Origin: Thiogranum sp.
GTDB lineage: Bacteria; Pseudomonadota; Gammaproteobacteria; DSM-19610
NCBI GenBank assembly: GCA_030148915.1
Contig: JASBSN010000009.1
Span: 1 to 64,000 of the forward strand
Direction of reading: 5' to 3'
DNA: 64,000 nt
Every line of letters starts with the position of its first letter. Position 1 is the first letter of the stretch. The position numbers were made by a program, and so were the translations under genes. Below the pieces are notes generated by a model that was not told where the DNA came from, made no database searches, and worked only from the letters and a program-made list of their open reading frames with translations. Below, one piece after another: positions 24,484 to 63,105 of the stretch.

Positions 24484-24717
24484 GCACACCTTAAAGAATT
24501 GCCTATTACATTTATAGTACTCGAAATCAGCCACTATAAAAATATCCGCCACCGTGGCGGCTTAGCCACTGGCGCCGATTCGAGCGGATTAACCGTCGGT
24601 TAATGATATCGATGGCGGGCGGCTACGTGCCGCGCAATCTGCGACGTGGCGCAGGGAAATGCTGCGTTGACGGCTATTTCCTACAAACCCGGGCGCGATG
24701 CCGCTGGATAGCCAGGG

Positions 24718-24764
24718 TATGGTAGCAAGGGGCGGATTCGAACCGCCGACCCCAGCATTATGAG
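24718..24764 (-). repeat. attL: duplicated 3' end of tRNA-Met
   Basis: 47 bp identical to 32446-32492, covering the CCA end, acceptor 3' strand, T-arm, variable loop and the anticodon region including CAT. Identity stops abruptly at 24765, so no complete tRNA can be made from this copy. Confidence 0.93.
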
Positions 24765-25127
24765 AGCACTGTTCGCTATTTAACATATTGTTTTTATTTA
24801 CTATATGTCTAGGCGACCGTTGCACAAGTGCGTAACAATGCTTAACCGTGCTGAACTGATTCCCGAAAAGCTCACGAAACCCACATTTTCTGGAATGTGC
24901 CCAAAAGTGCGGACTGCGCCACCAGAGGATCAGAATTTTCGCCAGTTAAAGATAGCAGACCACCTCTGAGTGCCGGACCCCTCTCCATCCACCATTACCG
25001 CTGAGGCGCTCTTGCAATCGCCTTGAGCCCCCCCAAGTCGCCCCGCTGGAGACTTGGGGTTCGGTGACAAAATTGCAGGCTCCACTGCCCGCCCTTCACA
25101 CCAGGGGTATTCCCAACTAGTCACGCC
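24765..25127. other. Non-coding left end of the island
   Basis: No convincing gene. A plus-strand frame at 24805-24969 (54 codons) has no clear ribosome site and no recognised family. This is where an integrase would normally sit beside the att site, and I see no integrase motif in any frame. A GC-rich stem, CCCAAGTC with GACTTGGG (about 25031-25061), may be a remnant terminator. Confidence 0.45.
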
Positions 25128-25424
25128 TCACCTACCGAGGTAGTCGCGGGTAATCTCCTCTCCGGGCGCAATATCCCTCAACGCACACACTTCCAAGGTG
25201 TCGTAGTACACTGCATTCGGGATATCGCTATGATTTATGAATCGCAGATCACAATGAACGTGAAATCCGTTTTTCTCATCCAGCCAAAGAACGTGCTCGC
25301 CATCCACAGTTGTGGAAACACCTTTGAGGATACCGATCAAGTCACCTGCGTAGATGTGGTCTTTAGCAAATAACCCCTTTCCGTGGATTGATCTGGCAGC
25401 GACGTAAATTAATGATTCTTTCAT
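25128..25424 (-). CDS. Minimal SET-domain protein
   Basis: A 98-residue protein consisting of little more than SET-domain core elements. GKGLFAKDHIYAGDLIG at the start, RFINHSDIPNA (the NHS motif that forms part of the cofactor-binding knot) and GEEITRDYL near the end match the family order. SET proteins transfer methyl groups from S-adenosylmethionine to lysine. The insert region is very short, so it may be a minimal or partly degenerate enzyme. AGGA precedes the ATG. Confidence 0.82.
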   Translation of the reverse strand: MKESLIYVAARSIHGKGLFAKDHIYAGDLIGILKGVSTTVDGEHVLWLDEKNGFHVHCDLRFINHSDIPNAVYYDTLEVCALRDIAPGEEITRDYLGR

Positions 25425-26030: not shown

Positions 26031-27080
26031 ATGAGAATGGTTATGTCGCCCAATTTATTTTCTTACGCAACGAGTGAATTGTCGCAAGACGCCTTTATCT
26101 GCTGGTTACTCAAATGGGCCTCGCCAGAGTACAAAGACGTGAACAGCGAGTTGCATGCTTGTGGTACAGCTCTATTAACTGCGTTCTTCGCTAAGGACGG
26201 TCGAGCGACGCCGTTAATTGAATCCATAGAGATTAAGAAGCAATACGAGAATATTGACATTCTATGCGTTATAAATAATCGACTTCCTATCATAATCGAA
26301 GATAAGACAAATACGGGTGCACACTCGGGTCAGCTAGAGCGTTATTACAATCAGATTTGCTCTCGGAAGGAATTCAGCGAGTGCGATGTTGTTCGTATAT
26401 TTTTCAAAACGCATGATCAGAGCAACTATATAAAGGTCGAAGACGATGGCTATCGTGTCTTTACACGCACCGACTTCCTCGGAATATTAAACCAATACAC
26501 TCAGACGCATAGTGACATATATAATGACTTCAAAACCTACTTAAACGACTTGGAGACAAATGTACAAAGTTATCGAACAATGCCAAAAGAGAAATGGACA
26601 AAAAGTTCCTGGACTGGGTTCTACATGGCATTGAAAGAGATACTCGGTCAGAACGATACCGCATGTAATTGGAAATATATCCCGAATCAGACTGGCGGGT
26701 TTATGGGATTTTGGTGGAATTTTAATACGGCAAACGGCTTAACAAGCCACGTTCAGCTGGAAGGCAATGAAAACGTTAACAGGCTGGTCTTTAAGCTAAA
26801 GACTGCAACCCCACCGCCGAGGTCTCACTATGCAAGCTGGTCAAAAACGCTAATCAAACTCTCTTCCGAATTCGATCTGCACATTACTAAGCCTAAACGA
26901 CTAGGTTCTGGTCGATCAGTCACGGTTGCGCTATTAAATAAAGACTTTAGAGTATTTAACGAAGGCCTTCTGGATATGGACGCCACTGTCGCTGTGCTTG
27001 CCAAGGCGAAACGCATACTAGATAAAGCCAGAACCGCTTTAGAAGAAGCCGTTGACCAGCAGACAGTCGCCACTGCGTGA
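26031..27080 (+). CDS. PD-(D/E)XK nuclease-superfamily protein
   Basis: A 349-residue protein. The segment YENIDILCVINNRLPIIIEDK in the N-terminal third fits the PD-(D/E)XK core (Asp, then EDK after two strands), followed by the QLERYYNQI helix. This is the arrangement of PD-(D/E)XK nuclease family proteins often found on genomic islands. The C-terminal half (WWNFNTANG to the end) is of unknown fold. A defence role is plausible from family and location, but no partner gene is adjacent. An alternative start is ATG at 26043. Confidence 0.75.
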   Translation: MRMVMSPNLFSYATSELSQDAFICWLLKWASPEYKDVNSELHACGTALLTAFFAKDGRATPLIESIEIKKQYENIDILCVINNRLPIIIEDKTNTGAHSGQLERYYNQICSRKEFSECDVVRIFFKTHDQSNYIKVEDDGYRVFTRTDFLGILNQYTQTHSDIYNDFKTYLNDLETNVQSYRTMPKEKWTKSSWTGFYMALKEILGQNDTACNWKYIPNQTGGFMGFWWNFNTANGLTSHVQLEGNENVNRLVFKLKTATPPPRSHYASWSKTLIKLSSEFDLHITKPKRLGSGRSVTVALLNKDFRVFNEGLLDMDATVAVLAKAKRILDKARTALEEAVDQQTVATA

Positions 27081-27165: not shown

Positions 27166-27510
27166 TTGCGCTTCATGTTGGAACCTTCCTGGGTCAGAAT
27201 TATAGGGAAATCCCACATCCCGCATGGCTCGGATTACGGGGGTACGGTCATCGATACTCCTGAGCGCAGACAGCCATACGGCAATCGTGCCAAGCAGACC
27301 CTGTCTGACCTCACATTTAAGAAGCCTGTAGCAGTTAAGTTCGTCGACATAGACCGTTACCAACGCATCGTCGGGCGCATCTATGTTGATAACCTGGATG
27401 TCAGTGCCGAGATGGTTCGGGTCGGTGCCGCTTGGGTGTACCGCAAATACGCAAAGGATCAGAGCCTCTATAAGCTAGAGGATGAGGCACACGATCTACA
27501 AGAATCTTAG
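27166..27510 (+). pseudogene. Truncated thermonuclease (SNase-like) fragment
   Basis: From about residue 29 the frame reads IDTPERRQPYGNRAKQ, then VDIDRYQRIVGRIYV and VRVGAAWVYRKYA, which is the middle and C-terminal part of a staphylococcal-nuclease domain, including Asp-Arg at DRY and the Glu of DTPE. The N-terminal strands with the first catalytic Asp/Arg are absent, replaced by unrelated residues, and the end lacks the usual GLW tail. It probably lost its ends by deletion. Confidence 0.65.
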
Positions 27511-29160: not shown

Positions 29161-30399
29161 TTACTCTCCCGCTACTTGGACGTATAAGGGGCGGATCGAA
29201 ACAGAGGTGTATTGAATCGGCTGCAAAGGAATCCCGAACTGTCGGCGCTCATTAACATTCATTGCGGGCCACTGCATTTTGTCCTGGCGAACCACAGCCT
29301 GACCTCTCCAATACTCGACTACGATAGTGGCCTGTTTGATCTCGTCGCTGGCCGCATTGGCGGCCGTTCCGAATAGGCCCTGCCCGCCGCCTTGCGCCGG
29401 AGCGATTTTCAGTCCCTGAAACAACAGACGGCGCGCGGCTTGTTGTTGCTGCTTTTGTTGTTTCATTTGGCGCTTGGCTTGCTCATTCTTTGCGTCTAGG
29501 ACTTCCGAGTAGGTGTTTGCTGCCGTTTCAAGGAGCGCGACGAATCCGCCGCCTTCGCCTGCCGCAGGACCTTGGATTTCTTTGTAGGCAAAAACCTCAT
29601 TGCCCTTCAGTAGCTCATCGTGCTGGGGGTTCATTGCTCCCGGTGTGTAGTATTGTTCGGCCAAGCCCGCATAGGACTCTAGGTTGTGCGCACGATCGTC
29701 AGGCAACGGATGGTCGTACAGCATATTTCCTGTATAGCTTCCCGATGCACTATTTAACCGTTTCCAAATGGCAATGCCTGCTTTTGGATCATAACCCGCC
29801 AACGCCGAATAGATAACGGAATACCGGTCGGCTTCGTCCTCCTGATTGGTCGTAAAAGCCGCTTCGTAGCCATCCTTGCGAAGGCTCTTGGATGCCAGCC
29901 CCGTTATCATTAACTTGCCTTGGCCTTCGGTGGCATGACGCGCTGCCACATGTGCGATTTCGTGGGCCAGCACAGCCGCCAGTTCGTCGTCCGTTTGTAC
30001 GCCGATATTCGGGTTAAACAGTCCTGAAAACACAAAGACCTTGCCACCACCGATAGTGAAGGCTTGAAACTGGTCAATATCCAACACATGCACTTCCCAC
30101 GGGAGCTGTTGGCGGTGGGCGACTTGCACGAGCCGGTTAAATACCCGCAAAACCTGTTCGTAGTGCTCGCCGTCAACTGCTATTTCCTTCTGCTTGGCAT
30201 CGGCCAGTATTTGCTGGGTTGCGGCTTCGGCTCTGTTAATTTCCTCCTGCTCTGATACAAGGGAAATCTGGCGCTGCCCTGTTACCGGGTCTGCTGAGCT
30301 AACCGAATCGCTGACAGCCATCATGCCTTTGTCTACGGTGGCGCAGGCAGATAAGGCGGCTACTAGTACAACGGTTATCAGTATTTTTAAGCGGTACAT
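29161..30399 (-). CDS. M48-family metallopeptidase lipoprotein
   Basis: A 412-residue protein with a lipoprotein signal (LSAC near residue 19) and an M48 zinc protease domain. HEIAH in VLAHEIAHVAARH supplies the two His ligands and the catalytic Glu; DEADRYSVIYSALAGYDP holds the third ligand. This resembles LoiP/YcaL, periplasmic outer-membrane-anchored proteases. Residues after about 290 are an extra region with a Gln-rich helix and a beta domain. It is unusual to find such a gene on an island; it neighbours another secreted protein. Confidence 0.88.
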   Translation of the reverse strand: MYRLKILITVVLVAALSACATVDKGMMAVSDSVSSADPVTGQRQISLVSEQEEINRAEAATQQILADAKQKEIAVDGEHYEQVLRVFNRLVQVAHRQQLPWEVHVLDIDQFQAFTIGGGKVFVFSGLFNPNIGVQTDDELAAVLAHEIAHVAARHATEGQGKLMITGLASKSLRKDGYEAAFTTNQEDEADRYSVIYSALAGYDPKAGIAIWKRLNSASGSYTGNMLYDHPLPDDRAHNLESYAGLAEQYYTPGAMNPQHDELLKGNEVFAYKEIQGPAAGEGGGFVALLETAANTYSEVLDAKNEQAKRQMKQQKQQQQAARRLLFQGLKIAPAQGGGQGLFGTAANAASDEIKQATIVVEYWRGQAVVRQDKMQWPAMNVNERRQFGIPLQPIQYTSVSIRPLYVQVAGE

Positions 30400-30459: not shown

Positions 30460-31293
30460 TTATTCCTTGTTCTCGCCCTTAGTGTTCTGGAATAGCTGCA
30501 CCAGCCCTTTGAGTTTTTCTCCATTCAGGACAACAACCTTGAGATCGAGCTGGCCTTGATTATTGCGCCGGTCAGAGTCATTGATAATGAATTCAAGCCT
30601 GCCACTGGCGTCTATTTGGCCGCGTTTGTTTTCGTCCAAGGGGTAGCCGTCTGATTTGGCCGAACCGCGGACACGGTATAGAAGGGCACCAAGCGGGGCA
30701 TTCTTATTAACGTTGTATATATTTGAAGACTGGCAGATATAGCCTTTCCAGTCTGCTAAACCATAGGCGTTGGAAACCGTCCAACCGCCGTTAGCATTCA
30801 CCCAAATGATATCGCCCGGGCTCACCGTAATCCCGGAGTTAGCCCACCCCTCGTTCGCATACACGGTAAACTGCTGTTCGGTCGCGGTCTCAGCAAACGC
30901 GGCTAGTGAAGACGCCAGCTCCTTGGCCTTGGTGACGTTATCGGGGGCTGAATCGGCTTCTATTTTGTCGGCCACGCCTTTAACGCTGCGCAGGCTGGAC
31001 TTGTTCTTGGTGAGGAATGTCTGCACCTCAGTCGAGGCCTTCTCAAGTGACTCCGCTTTCTCACTAACGGTGGCGGCTGCGGATTTTATCTTCGCAACGT
31101 CTGGCTCCACAGTTAGGGCCTGCCCAACCAATGCGGCCGAGCTGACTGCGTTTAACATAAAGGCGGTAGAGGTTTCCTCGAAGTTGTGCATCAACTGTAT
31201 GAATTCCGGATACGGGGGCTCGTTTGCCCTCGCCGGAGACGCCCCAAGAAACGTGATTGCAACGAGCGCGAAAATGACATTCCTGAACTTCAT
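30460..31293 (-). CDS. Secreted protein with helical domain and LecA-like beta domain
   Basis: A 277-residue precursor with a Sec signal peptide (cleavage near ARANEP). Residues ~25-140 are helical. The C-terminal ~130 residues resemble the PA-I galactophilic lectin (LecA) fold: VSPGDIIWVNANGGWTVS, then PLGALLYRVRG and LEFIINDSDRRNNQGQLDL, in the same order as LecA. Carbohydrate binding is inference. AGGAGG just before the ATG is a strong ribosome site. It lies upstream of the M48 gene on the same strand, 60 bp apart. Confidence 0.72.
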   Translation of the reverse strand: MKFRNVIFALVAITFLGASPARANEPPYPEFIQLMHNFEETSTAFMLNAVSSAALVGQALTVEPDVAKIKSAAATVSEKAESLEKASTEVQTFLTKNKSSLRSVKGVADKIEADSAPDNVTKAKELASSLAAFAETATEQQFTVYANEGWANSGITVSPGDIIWVNANGGWTVSNAYGLADWKGYICQSSNIYNVNKNAPLGALLYRVRGSAKSDGYPLDENKRGQIDASGRLEFIINDSDRRNNQGQLDLKVVVLNGEKLKGLVQLFQNTKGENKE

Positions 31294-31510
31294 GAAACCT
31301 CCTGGTAAAAAAGCGTCCTTCGGTCAATGCAGGCTATTTGCTGGAACGATGCTGCGCGGGAGCCGCGTGATGGTTGGCATGTCAGATATGCGCTCCACCC
31401 CTGAGCATCCTCGACGGGCATCCTTGCATTGCCGCTGTTCACTCCATTGTCAAAAAACTCAACCCTATCGTCGGCGGGTCCGGCCGGTGGCAAACCGGCC
31501 GGGAAGACCC

Positions 31511-31984
31511 CTACCCAGACAAGTCCGTAAGAGGAGGGGCAGAGCCATAATCAGCCTTTTCCTGCCTGATGTGCTCCAAAATTGCCTTAATCTCCCCAGA
31601 CTTATCCGCCATGAGGTCACTATCGGCACGTTTGGCCCGTTCCTCAGCCTGATCCATGTATTCCTTTAAAGTCCGGGCAGCCGCCACCCGGGCGGAGCCG
31701 GATGAATCATTCCTTGCCACATCAATCAGGGTACCCAGAACCAGCTCCTTGGCCTCCACTATGTCCCGAATGATCGCATGCCCCGCCTGCTCCTTGGCCT
31801 GGGCCAGCAGGTCCTCAAGGTGGCCCCGGAACGCGGGCAGCTTCCGCCAGTTGTGGATGGTCATACGGGTAACCCCGCATGCCGTCGCAATATCGGTCAC
31901 GGGAGTTCCCAGAGCCAGCAGACTGGCCGCCTTCATCTGGGTTTCAGAGAGGCCCGGAGTGGGTAAATTTTGTGCAGTCGCCAT
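31511..31984 (-). CDS. Phage-type helix-turn-helix protein behind an SOS box
   Basis: A 157-residue protein with an N-terminal HTH (TDIATACGVTRMTIHNWRKL) of the type found in phage terminase small subunits and other phage DNA-binding proteins, then a long helical region. The gene is preceded by a LexA-type box at 32031-32046 that abuts a -10-like TATAAT, so expression is probably induced by DNA damage. This makes it a candidate regulator of island induction (inference). Confidence 0.7.
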   Translation of the reverse strand: MATAQNLPTPGLSETQMKAASLLALGTPVTDIATACGVTRMTIHNWRKLPAFRGHLEDLLAQAKEQAGHAIIRDIVEAKELVLGTLIDVARNDSSGSARVAAARTLKEYMDQAEERAKRADSDLMADKSGEIKAILEHIRQEKADYGSAPPLTDLSG

Positions 31985-32030
31985 AATTCGCCTTTACATC
32001 GTCTTTACGTGCGTTGACGTTATTATACCA

Positions 32031-32046
32031 CTGTATGGGTATACAG
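32031..32046 (-). promoter_or_regulatory. LexA (SOS) box on the island
   Basis: CTGTATGGGTATACAG fits CTGT-N8-ACAG. Read on the minus strand it is TACTG followed by TATACCCATACAG, close to the gammaproteobacterial consensus, and a TATAAT lies directly downstream (plus-strand ATTATA at about 32022-32027). It sits 47 bp before the HTH gene start. The host lexA gene in this window has its own box at 63063-63078. Confidence 0.8.
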
Positions 32047-32131
32047 TACTGCAAGACCCGCATTTCTGCAAGGCCGGGCCCCACCAGATCAGCGCCGCAC
32101 ACGCCCACCACCAGCCCGGACCTGTCGAGGA

Positions 32132-32341
32132 CTAGGCCGACTCCCTGTCCTGGATCAGTTCTTCCCGCAGGATGGTGACATCGGCAGGGGCCGCAATACC
32201 GACCCTGACTTGGTTACCTTTCACGCCTAGCACAGTGACAGTGATAGGCTCCCTAGCGGACGTAGCCAACTGAGCGCAACCGTGGGCAGGAGGGTTGTCG
32301 ATCTGGATAGATTCGCCTGGACGGCGGGTGAGTATGAGCAT
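32132..32341 (-). CDS. csrA: CsrA/RsmA paralogue carried by the island
   Basis: The 69-residue product starts [11 protein letters not shown] and ends with the core [17 protein letters not shown] and the ILREEL segment whose Arg contacts RNA in CsrA. Compared with E. coli CsrA there is an extra segment of about 16 residues between strands 1 and 2 ([16 protein letters not shown]). GGAGG 6 bp before the ATG at 32341 fixes the start. CsrA binds GGA motifs in mRNA leaders. Mobile-element CsrA paralogues are known; this one may control island or host transcripts. Confidence 0.88.
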
Positions 32342-32445
32342 GCCAGCCTCCGTGCTGATATTGTGGAGCACATGCGGAGCACAGAGCCCCGCCGCGATCC
32401 TGTACCCCAATCCTTGGAATATTTTCTTATTGTTTATTAGCAAGT

Positions 32446-32492
32446 TATGGTAGCAAGGGGCGGATTCGAACCGCCGACCCCAGCATTATGAG
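32446..32492 (-). repeat. attR: 3' part of the intact tRNA-Met
   Basis: Identical over 47 bp to 24718-24764. It forms the 3' part of the functional tRNA gene, so the element restored the tRNA on integration. Confidence 0.93.
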
Positions 32493-32524
32493 TGCTGTGC
32501 TCTAACCAACTGAGCTACCTTGCC
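32448..32524 (-). tRNA. tRNA-Met (CAT, elongator type)
   Basis: 77 nt with CCA encoded. The acceptor GGCAAGG pairs with CCTTGCT (first pair G-T wobble); the D-arm contains AGCTCAGTTGGTTAGAGC, the anticodon loop is CTCATAA, and the T-arm holds GGTTCGAATCC. The body resembles elongator tRNA-Met of E. coli rather than initiator tRNA or tRNA-Ile(CAT). It is the integration site of the adjoining island. Confidence 0.93.
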
Positions 32525-61709: not shown

Positions 61710-62423
61710 TTACAACCGTGTGTTCGCCATGTGCTGAGCTAAATTTACTGCCCGTCGAGACAGGCGGGCGCCCCCTGGCGCCGTTACGCCTTGCACAGAG
61801 GGCAACCGCGCAGTATCCAGACCCACCACTGTTGCGCCCGATTGACCGCCGCCAGGCTTGAGAACAGAGACGGCGAGGTTATTGTCGAGGAGGTGAGTGC
61901 CAAGTCGCACACGCAAGACCGTGGACGACGGTTTTCGCTTCACGCCTGGCTGACGAAACAAAAATCCCAGCGCATCGCCAGCCTCAGCCGCTCGTTGCAG
62001 ACGGCACAGGACGGCGGCGTCATCGACCATCGGCCAGGCCAGCACGGCGGCGCAGTTTCCCAGGCGCAGGCTTTCCTCGACCACCGCCAAGCCATCCTGC
62101 TGCGCCGAAGGGTAAACCAACAACAGCCGCGACAGATCGACACCGGCGGCGGCCAGCGCCGGCGCATCAAGTCTTTGCGGGGGCGCCACCCAGCAGATCC
62201 AGCGCGCGCCCCGACTGAGCCGCGCCAGCGTCGGTAACAACAGGCGCAGACTGCCTGCACCGCGCCGGGAGAGCAGAATTTCACTCACACTGCCGCGCGG
62301 CCAACCACCACCCGGCAGCAGTTCATCGAGCTCGCCGTAGCCGGTCGACAGCGTCGCGGCAGACCCGGCAGGGTGGCCGGCCCGCCCGACGAGCGTGGGT
62401 GCTACGAGCGGACCGGTATTCAC
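61710..62423 (-). CDS. imuA: ImuA-like RecA/SulA superfamily protein
   Basis: The 237-residue protein resembles ImuA of the lexA-imuA-imuB-dnaE2 mutagenesis cassette: [20 protein letters not shown] and [20 protein letters not shown] in the RecA-like order, without a normal Walker A. The start overlaps the end of lexA (4 bp), so it belongs to the SOS unit. imuB and dnaE2 do not follow within this window; a SulA-type role is possible. Confidence 0.85.
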
Positions 62424-63031
62424 AACGCCTGGTTACGCAAAATACCGACACCCAGCCCTTCTATCGCCAGATCGCGCTCGCGCAGATCCACCCGAATGGG
62501 CTCGAAGTCTTCGTTTTCCGGTAACAGGTAGACGATAGAACCGCGGCGGCGGAAACGCTTGACGGTAACTTCATCATCCAGGCGGGCAACCACGATCTGG
62601 CCGTTCTGCGCGGTGCGCGTACGGTGCACGGCGAGCAGATCGCCATCCATGATGCCGATATCTTTCATGCTCATACCGCTCACCCGCAAGAGATAATGGG
62701 CGCGCGGATGAAACAGGGCCGGATCGACCGGATAGTGGTCTTCGACGTGCTCCACCGCCAGTACCGGTTCGCCGGCGGCGACCCGCCCGACCACCGGGAT
62801 GCCCTCCGGTTCGCTATCTTCAACCAGCACCCGGATGCCCCGTGAAGAGCCCTGCAGCAGCTCGATGAACCCCTTGCGCTCGAGCGCGCGCAGGTGCTCC
62901 TCGGCGGCATTGGGGGAACGGAAACCGAACGCCGCGGCGATTTCCATGCGCGTCGGCGGATAGCCTTCGTCGTGAAGGTATTCCTGTATCAGCGCGAGGA
63001 TTTCGCCCTGGCGCGGAGTCAGATCATCCAT
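62420..63031 (-). CDS. lexA: SOS repressor LexA
   Basis: A 203-residue repressor: N-terminal winged HTH ([21 protein letters not shown]), cleavage site Ala86-Gly87 (RVAAGEPV), catalytic Ser121 in SGMSMKD and Lys158. It represses SOS genes until RecA-stimulated self-cleavage. Own LexA box lies 32 bp upstream. Confidence 0.97.
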
Positions 63032-63062
63032 TGCGTCACCTGCTGGTTATTTATCCAGTATA

Positions 63063-63078
63063 CTGTGAGTATATACAG
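63063..63078 (-). promoter_or_regulatory. LexA box of lexA-imuA
   Basis: CTGTGAGTATATACAG fits CTGT-N8-ACAG. A partly overlapping CAGTATACTG at 63056-63065 may be a second half-conserved site. Autoregulation is expected. Confidence 0.9.
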
Positions 63079-63105
63079 GCTTTCTGCGGATGCAAGTAAA
63101 ACAGA

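Follow-up and report, generated by a model that had tools for sequence, protein, structure and literature searches.

In staphylococcal islands, a terS-type gene is already known to be controlled by host LexA. In Staphylococcus aureus, SaPI operon I places the island-borne terS under LexA (PMC11442139), and the gene contents of this operon have been set out (PMC12409344). The Gram-negative PICI studied in detail in PMC6092414 is cued by its helper phage instead: in this island, EcCICFT073, alpA requires the helper phage but is independent of SOS, and terS is absent. In the temperate phage GIL01, host LexA is reported to act on the promoters of the element (PMC4551915), and the SOS-controlled integron integrase is reported as another mobile-element gene under LexA (PMC3375312). 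In the open-licence literature searched, no LexA-controlled terminase small subunit was listed for an island of a Gram-negative host.

The locus analyzed here lies in a stretch of 64,000 nucleotides (the window) on a 75.6-kb contig of a 3.2-Mb draft genome that is 99% complete. By YchF, its relatives with names are metagenome genomes of Thiohalobacter and Thiogranum (83-84% identity), and the host is therefore a gammaproteobacterium near these genera, whose names mark them as sulfur oxidizers. The locus resembles SaPI operon I in that an island gene of the terminase-small-subunit type is predicted to be under direct control of host LexA. It differs in the host and in the type of LexA box, it apparently consists of one gene and lacks capsid-size and phage-interference genes, its island has no integrase or replication genes, and its TerS identity is weak. 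A sister element elsewhere in the genome shares with Gram-negative PICIs such as EcCICFT073 an integrase, AlpA and a replication gene within 13.5 kb bounded by tRNA sequence, but it carries a large terminase, and no core gene was seen in the window island. GIL01 is a complete phage with its early genes under LexA, whereas a single gene of a decayed island would be controlled here. The integron integrase is a recombinase, whereas the protein considered here is TerS-like. This genome also has a strong LexA box (29.4 bits) just upstream of an integron-integrase-like gene (L025 506-525, G000:C77). The features of the locus are collected in Table 1.

Table 1. Features of the tRNA-Met island and of the host lexA locus, in window coordinates.
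Feature	Position	Strand	Evidence
tRNA-Met (CAT), integration target	32448..32524	-	ARAGORN
Attachment repeat, tRNA end	32441..32502		direct repeat, 90% over 62 nt
csrA-like gene, extra internal stretch	32132..32341	-	Pfam CsrA 2e-18; below NCBIfam csrA cut-offs
Candidate LexA-type operator, 20-mer around CTGTATGGGTATACAG	32029..32048		exact match; 19.15 bits, genus LexA matrix without this site
Extended -10 TGG-TATAAT of HTH promoter	32022..32030	-	read directly from sequence
HTH gene, 157 aa, terminase-small-subunit / phBC6A51-like	31511..31984	-	PHROG 1.8e-9, Pfam HTH_23, fold 2ao9
GC-rich hairpin, 9 nt past HTH stop	31480..31502	-	folded; DNA match to sister element starts at 31480
Cargo: predicted secreted protein, without family match	30460..31293	-	family searches
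Cargo: M48 peptidase	29161..30399	-	Pfam 3.4e-21
Cargo: SNase-domain protein	27166..27510	+	Pfam 2.3e-19
Cargo: PDDEXK nuclease, similar to PADLOC PDC-S26 models	26031..27080	+	Pfam PDDEXK_4 8.1e-8; PADLOC 8.2e-12
Cargo: SET-domain protein	25128..25424	-	Pfam 1.5e-12
Distal attachment repeat, copy of tRNA-Met 3' part	24713..24774		direct repeat
Host LexA	62420..63031	-	Pfam LexA_DNA_bind 8.1e-26, Peptidase_S24 2.2e-34
lexA promoter boxes	63041..63080		main 63061-63080, 21.6 bits; second 63041-63060, 17.8 bits

A near-consensus LexA box at the promoter of the HTH gene, and the host LexA with a box of its own in the same window, had been proposed in a first-pass annotation, and both are present. 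The window search located CTGTATGGGTATACAG at 32031-32046 as an exact CTGT-N8-ACAG match. The box is directly adjoined by TGG-TATAAT, and on the minus strand the HTH start codon (ATG) follows about 47 bp downstream of the box. The operator is therefore read as placed on the promoter, as in a gene of the LexA (SOS) regulon. The promoter has no good -35 hexamer and was not reported by the consensus promoter scan; binding of LexA just upstream of an extended -10 is one of its usual modes of repression. The LexA of Table 1 is the only convincing one in the genome. A second candidate, on contig C47, was rejected because its sequence reads as a LuxR-type HTH protein. The gene at 61710-62423, which overlaps lexA at its end, resembles RecA weakly and is also found next to lexA in other genomes, at least G004, G003 and G013; it is possibly a SulA/ImuA-like member of a lexA operon.

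CTGT-N8-ACAG occurs at two sites in the window, the second (63063-63078) before lexA. The loose pattern is weak evidence because 0.59 sites are expected per window, two were reached in 12 of 100 shuffles and the genome holds 33 sites against 22 for a backwards control. It also matches lux-type sites, for example before a luxI-like gene. A matrix of SOS promoters of the genus was therefore built as a stronger test. The matrix has 20 positions, and the HTH site was left out. Training used only lexA and recA boxes with the exact CTGT-N8-ACAG (nine distinct lexA and four distinct recA sequences), together with a single site from each of three further SOS-type promoters in the host, and five lexA promoters without the exact box were dropped. 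With the host included, the exact box was found in all 13 readable recA promoters of the genus (2 of 15 loci had no gene start) and in 10 of 15 lexA promoters (1 of 16 loci had no gene start). Left-out sites scored between 17.2 and 29.9 bits in a leave-one-group-out analysis. The HTH box ranks second in the window after the main lexA box, and its score compares with 22.4 bits for an imuA-like box, 17.8 bits for the second lexA box and 15.4 bits for a luxI-type decoy. On the genus matrix the gene thus carries the host motif of the LexA (SOS) regulon. The matrix score, the promoter position, the intact LexA and the LexA-like boxes of the sister element together indicate that the HTH gene is likely under direct LexA control, and LexA very probably binds the box.

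The window island spans 7.7 kb between duplicated tRNA-Met 3' ends, so that attachment repeats of the PICI kind bound both this island and the 13.5-kb element at tRNA-Arg. From the tRNA outward, the order is csrA-like, HTH, secreted protein, M48 peptidase, SNase, PDDEXK and SET, with some further, unassigned frames, and much of the region has a G+C content below its surroundings. Integrase, replication, AlpA-like, capsid and large terminase genes were not seen among the island frames read and tested; the PICI core genes (integrase, AlpA or similar, replication) are missing here and all present in the sister element. The island is best read as a decayed satellite- or prophage-like element, and PICI status is not claimed. 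The pairing of ychF with tRNA-Met was found in 10 of 10 genus genomes for which the flank was fetched. In the closest relative by YchF (G004, 91%), the 8-kb island behind this tRNA-Met is a different one, encoding a tyrosine integrase and a DUF927 protein; next come a second tRNA-Met copy and the same flanking genes as in the window (L159, G004:C22), which makes the site an integration hotspot. No HK97-type capsid or portal family was matched in the genome, and thus no resident helper was found.

The analogy with prophage induction had also been drawn in the first-pass annotation. It survives as far as LexA control, by sequence, is concerned, but the island has no integrase, replication or capsid gene, and the boxed gene looks TerS-like and not like a phage repressor or antirepressor. 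Damage would therefore induce one gene and not an excision program, and the appropriate analogy for a TerS-like gene of a decayed island under LexA is SaPI operon I, not CI-type prophage induction.

A serious rival, and a distinct possibility, is that the box is functional on a relic: LexA would bind, and the gene would have no present role as the island is immobile. The absence of an integrase, replication gene or large terminase among the island genes and the already broken csrA of the sister element are consistent with a relic, whereas the HTH frame, its promoter and the csrA-like frame are all intact in the window island, and purifying selection between the HTH paralogues argues for a function, though one that may predate the decay. 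A relic is compatible with the explanation we prefer, a LexA-repressed TerS-like gene of a decayed integrated element, and for this reason our confidence in one overlaps with our confidence in the other.

A host genome search with the HTH protein returned one paralogue, 57% identical, on contig C45 (L021, C45:14001-34000). The paralogue belongs to the sister element, which follows a tRNA-Arg and a csrA-like gene broken by a stop; repeats of the tRNA-Arg end, spaced 13.5 kb, mark its borders. This element encodes a tyrosine integrase, AlpA, a replication-initiator-like protein, a large terminase and the csrA-HTH pair. Its large terminase shares up to 34.8% identity with large terminases annotated in phages, across at least 80% of the protein, and no structural gene was found among the frames tested. 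A PD-Lambda-5_A-type defense gene and an adjoining Dam-type methyltransferase also lie within the tRNA-Arg element (L021 6386-8700, G000:C45). Searches for HTH orthologues covered 95 genomes including the host, 369 genomes of the class, genome contigs (using a two-sequence alignment), viral contigs, phages and plasmids. Only the in-genome paralogue was close, and the other matches were weak HTH matches. No close relatives of the sister element were found by its large terminase or its replication protein.

The two best LexA-matrix sites of the 20-kb L021 stretch both fall within the sister element. The first (22.8 bits) falls within the opening codons of the replication gene, right behind a strong ribosome site. 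The second (19.4 bits) has one damaged half-site and overlaps a TATAAT; 34 bp downstream of it is a 120-aa frame, which is followed by the HNH-type and large-terminase genes. When the element was simulated 600 times, no simulation contained two sites at 19.4 bits. The promoter of the sister HTH gene has no LexA box (best score 5.3 bits in the 300 bp upstream), and the link between LexA and the HTH gene is therefore not conserved between the two copies. By matrix score, both elements carry LexA-like boxes, on different genes. The view that the HTH promoter is the only accessory promoter with such a site thus applies to the window and does not extend to the genome, where the sister island has two LexA-like boxes.

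Homologues of csrA are known from phages, plasmids and integrative elements (PMC7366521), and the csrA-like gene here likewise sits on an integrative element. It differs from the known mobile-element genes in its position directly behind the target tRNA, its extra internal stretch and its pairing with an HTH gene. Thirteen of 30 csrA-like matches in other species were inspected; four of these loci, in three genomes, have a tRNA directly in front, and neither the HTH gene (0/13) nor an exact box beside csrA (0/13) was found at any of them. A csrA-like gene stands directly behind a tRNA at 32132-32524 of the window and at L251 5247-5559, L245 1201-1692, L228 1504-2021 and L235 1504-2076. The tRNAs ahead of csrA-like genes in the genus are Met, Arg, Glu and Pro, and the island copies have the extra internal stretch. 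These tRNA-adjacent genes may be regulators that the elements carry, with expression coming from the side of the tRNA.

Three PHROG terminase-small-subunit families match the window HTH protein (best 1.8e-9), and five match the paralogue. In Pfam, only HTH families rise above the cut-off, one of them of transposase type, and the TerS-like Terminase_5 stays below it. A two-sequence profile of the HTH protein and its paralogue finds the phage protein 2ao9, phBC6A51, at 0.034. The single-sequence structure model is all-helical, with an N-terminal HTH followed by a helical part; its mean pLDDT is 68.6, with confidence limited to the HTH part. The top PDB matches of the model are 2ao9 chains (E 0.027), which makes phBC6A51 the nearest solved fold, and no match in the PDB search reaches E 0.001. 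TerS-annotated viral proteins rank lower in the viral library, with weak E-values. Between the paralogues, dN is 0.16 and dS 2.0 in the C-terminal helical half, and dN is 0.77 and dS 1.6 in the HTH half, with dS values near saturation. On these estimates the C-terminal half is under strong purifying selection. A conserved C-terminal half and a divergent HTH half fit a protein in which the DNA target differs and the ring or partner surface is kept, as in TerS. Synteny does not point to TerS: in Stenotrophomonas phage Summit and Vibrio phage PG28, which have related large terminases, the genes beside the terminase show no detectable similarity to the HTH protein. A large terminase next to the HTH gene was not seen in the window island, and that of the sister element is about 4 kb from the HTH gene, on the other strand and at the opposite element end. 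Overall, the HTH gene looks more like one for a terminase small subunit than like a generic regulator, a phage repressor or an antirepressor. A packaging role for the protein is about evenly balanced.

It is rather unlikely that LexA control is real and the HTH protein serves as a transcription or excision regulator of the element, not in packaging. Such a regulator would account for the recognition of only the HTH part by Pfam, for additional DNA-binding matches in PHROG with weak excisionase-type matches for the paralogue, and for the distance between the sister HTH gene and the large terminase at the other end, but the best PHROG matches are terminase small subunits, the sister element already has AlpA, and a C-terminal helical half more conserved than the HTH half is unusual for a regulator that keeps its operator.

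The specificity of the matrix was assessed by simulation and in 31 genus sequences. At the score of the HTH box, 0.0067 sites are expected per 64 kb (150 simulated windows), and when the island's own composition was simulated, at least one such site occurred in 3 of 600. Sites of at least 16 bits were present in seven of the 31 sequences, several of their SOS sites having been in the training set: the window, the sister element, four SOS-type promoters and one xseA-like frame. The host genes of the scanned sites are ones we take to be imuA, intI, luxI, xseA and PA0069, and SulA-like, phage-integrase and radical-SAM domains were found for three of them. The box within the xseA-like frame scores 28.8 bits (L023 2058-2077, G000:C57), and a gene for an M23 peptidase lies about 210 bp downstream of it. 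Lux-type-looking CTGT-N8-ACAG sites are found at L028 1617-1636 and near L027 1403, one of them before a luxI-like gene, and such sites are a trap for consensus LexA scans of this genome. A chance palindrome or a lux-type box at the HTH promoter is very improbable: the loose pattern does match lux-type boxes, one of which accompanies the luxI-like gene, and does occur 33 times against 22 in the control, but the arms CTGTAT/ATACAG are LexA-like, the luxI-type site scores well below the HTH box, sites of at least 16 bits are confined to those seven sequences, mostly SOS-type promoters and the two elements, and the lux-type box was rejected on score and arm sequence and the chance box on the simulated nulls.

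The proposed mechanism starts with LexA at 32029-32048, where it would cover the region just upstream of the extended -10 and block RNA polymerase. Following DNA damage, RecA filaments would trigger LexA self-cleavage, and the HTH gene would be transcribed as a short, probably single-gene message. The hairpin past the HTH stop possibly ends this message; a similar sequence follows the sister HTH gene, and no T-run comes directly after the hairpin, so termination here is a prediction from the fold. The encoded protein probably binds DNA and forms rings, as a member of the terminase-small-subunit / phBC6A51 type. It may originally have marked the DNA of the element for packaging in the same SOS episode that induces prophages, like terS of SaPI operon I. 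The element would have integrated at tRNA-Met and decayed, and would now persist with its accessory cargo.

We therefore regard a LexA-repressed TerS-like gene of a decayed integrated element as the best explanation and hold it at even confidence. The box, its position, the LexA, the attachment repeats, and the csrA-HTH pair and LexA-like boxes of the sister element can be read from the DNA. LexA binding, induction, the oligomeric state, packaging and past mobility are the parts that we infer.

A broader view is that the genus hosts tRNA-integrated, csrA-marked, defense-carrying phage satellites whose packaging and replication genes answer to host LexA directly, a separately evolved Gram-negative counterpart of SaPI operon I whose members place the box on different genes. 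This view is speculative and, at present, doubtful. For the gene itself, LexA control of a TerS-like gene on a tRNA island of a gammaproteobacterium would imply that such elements have tapped the host damage signal more than once, and it would reveal which gene a decaying element retains under a damage switch.
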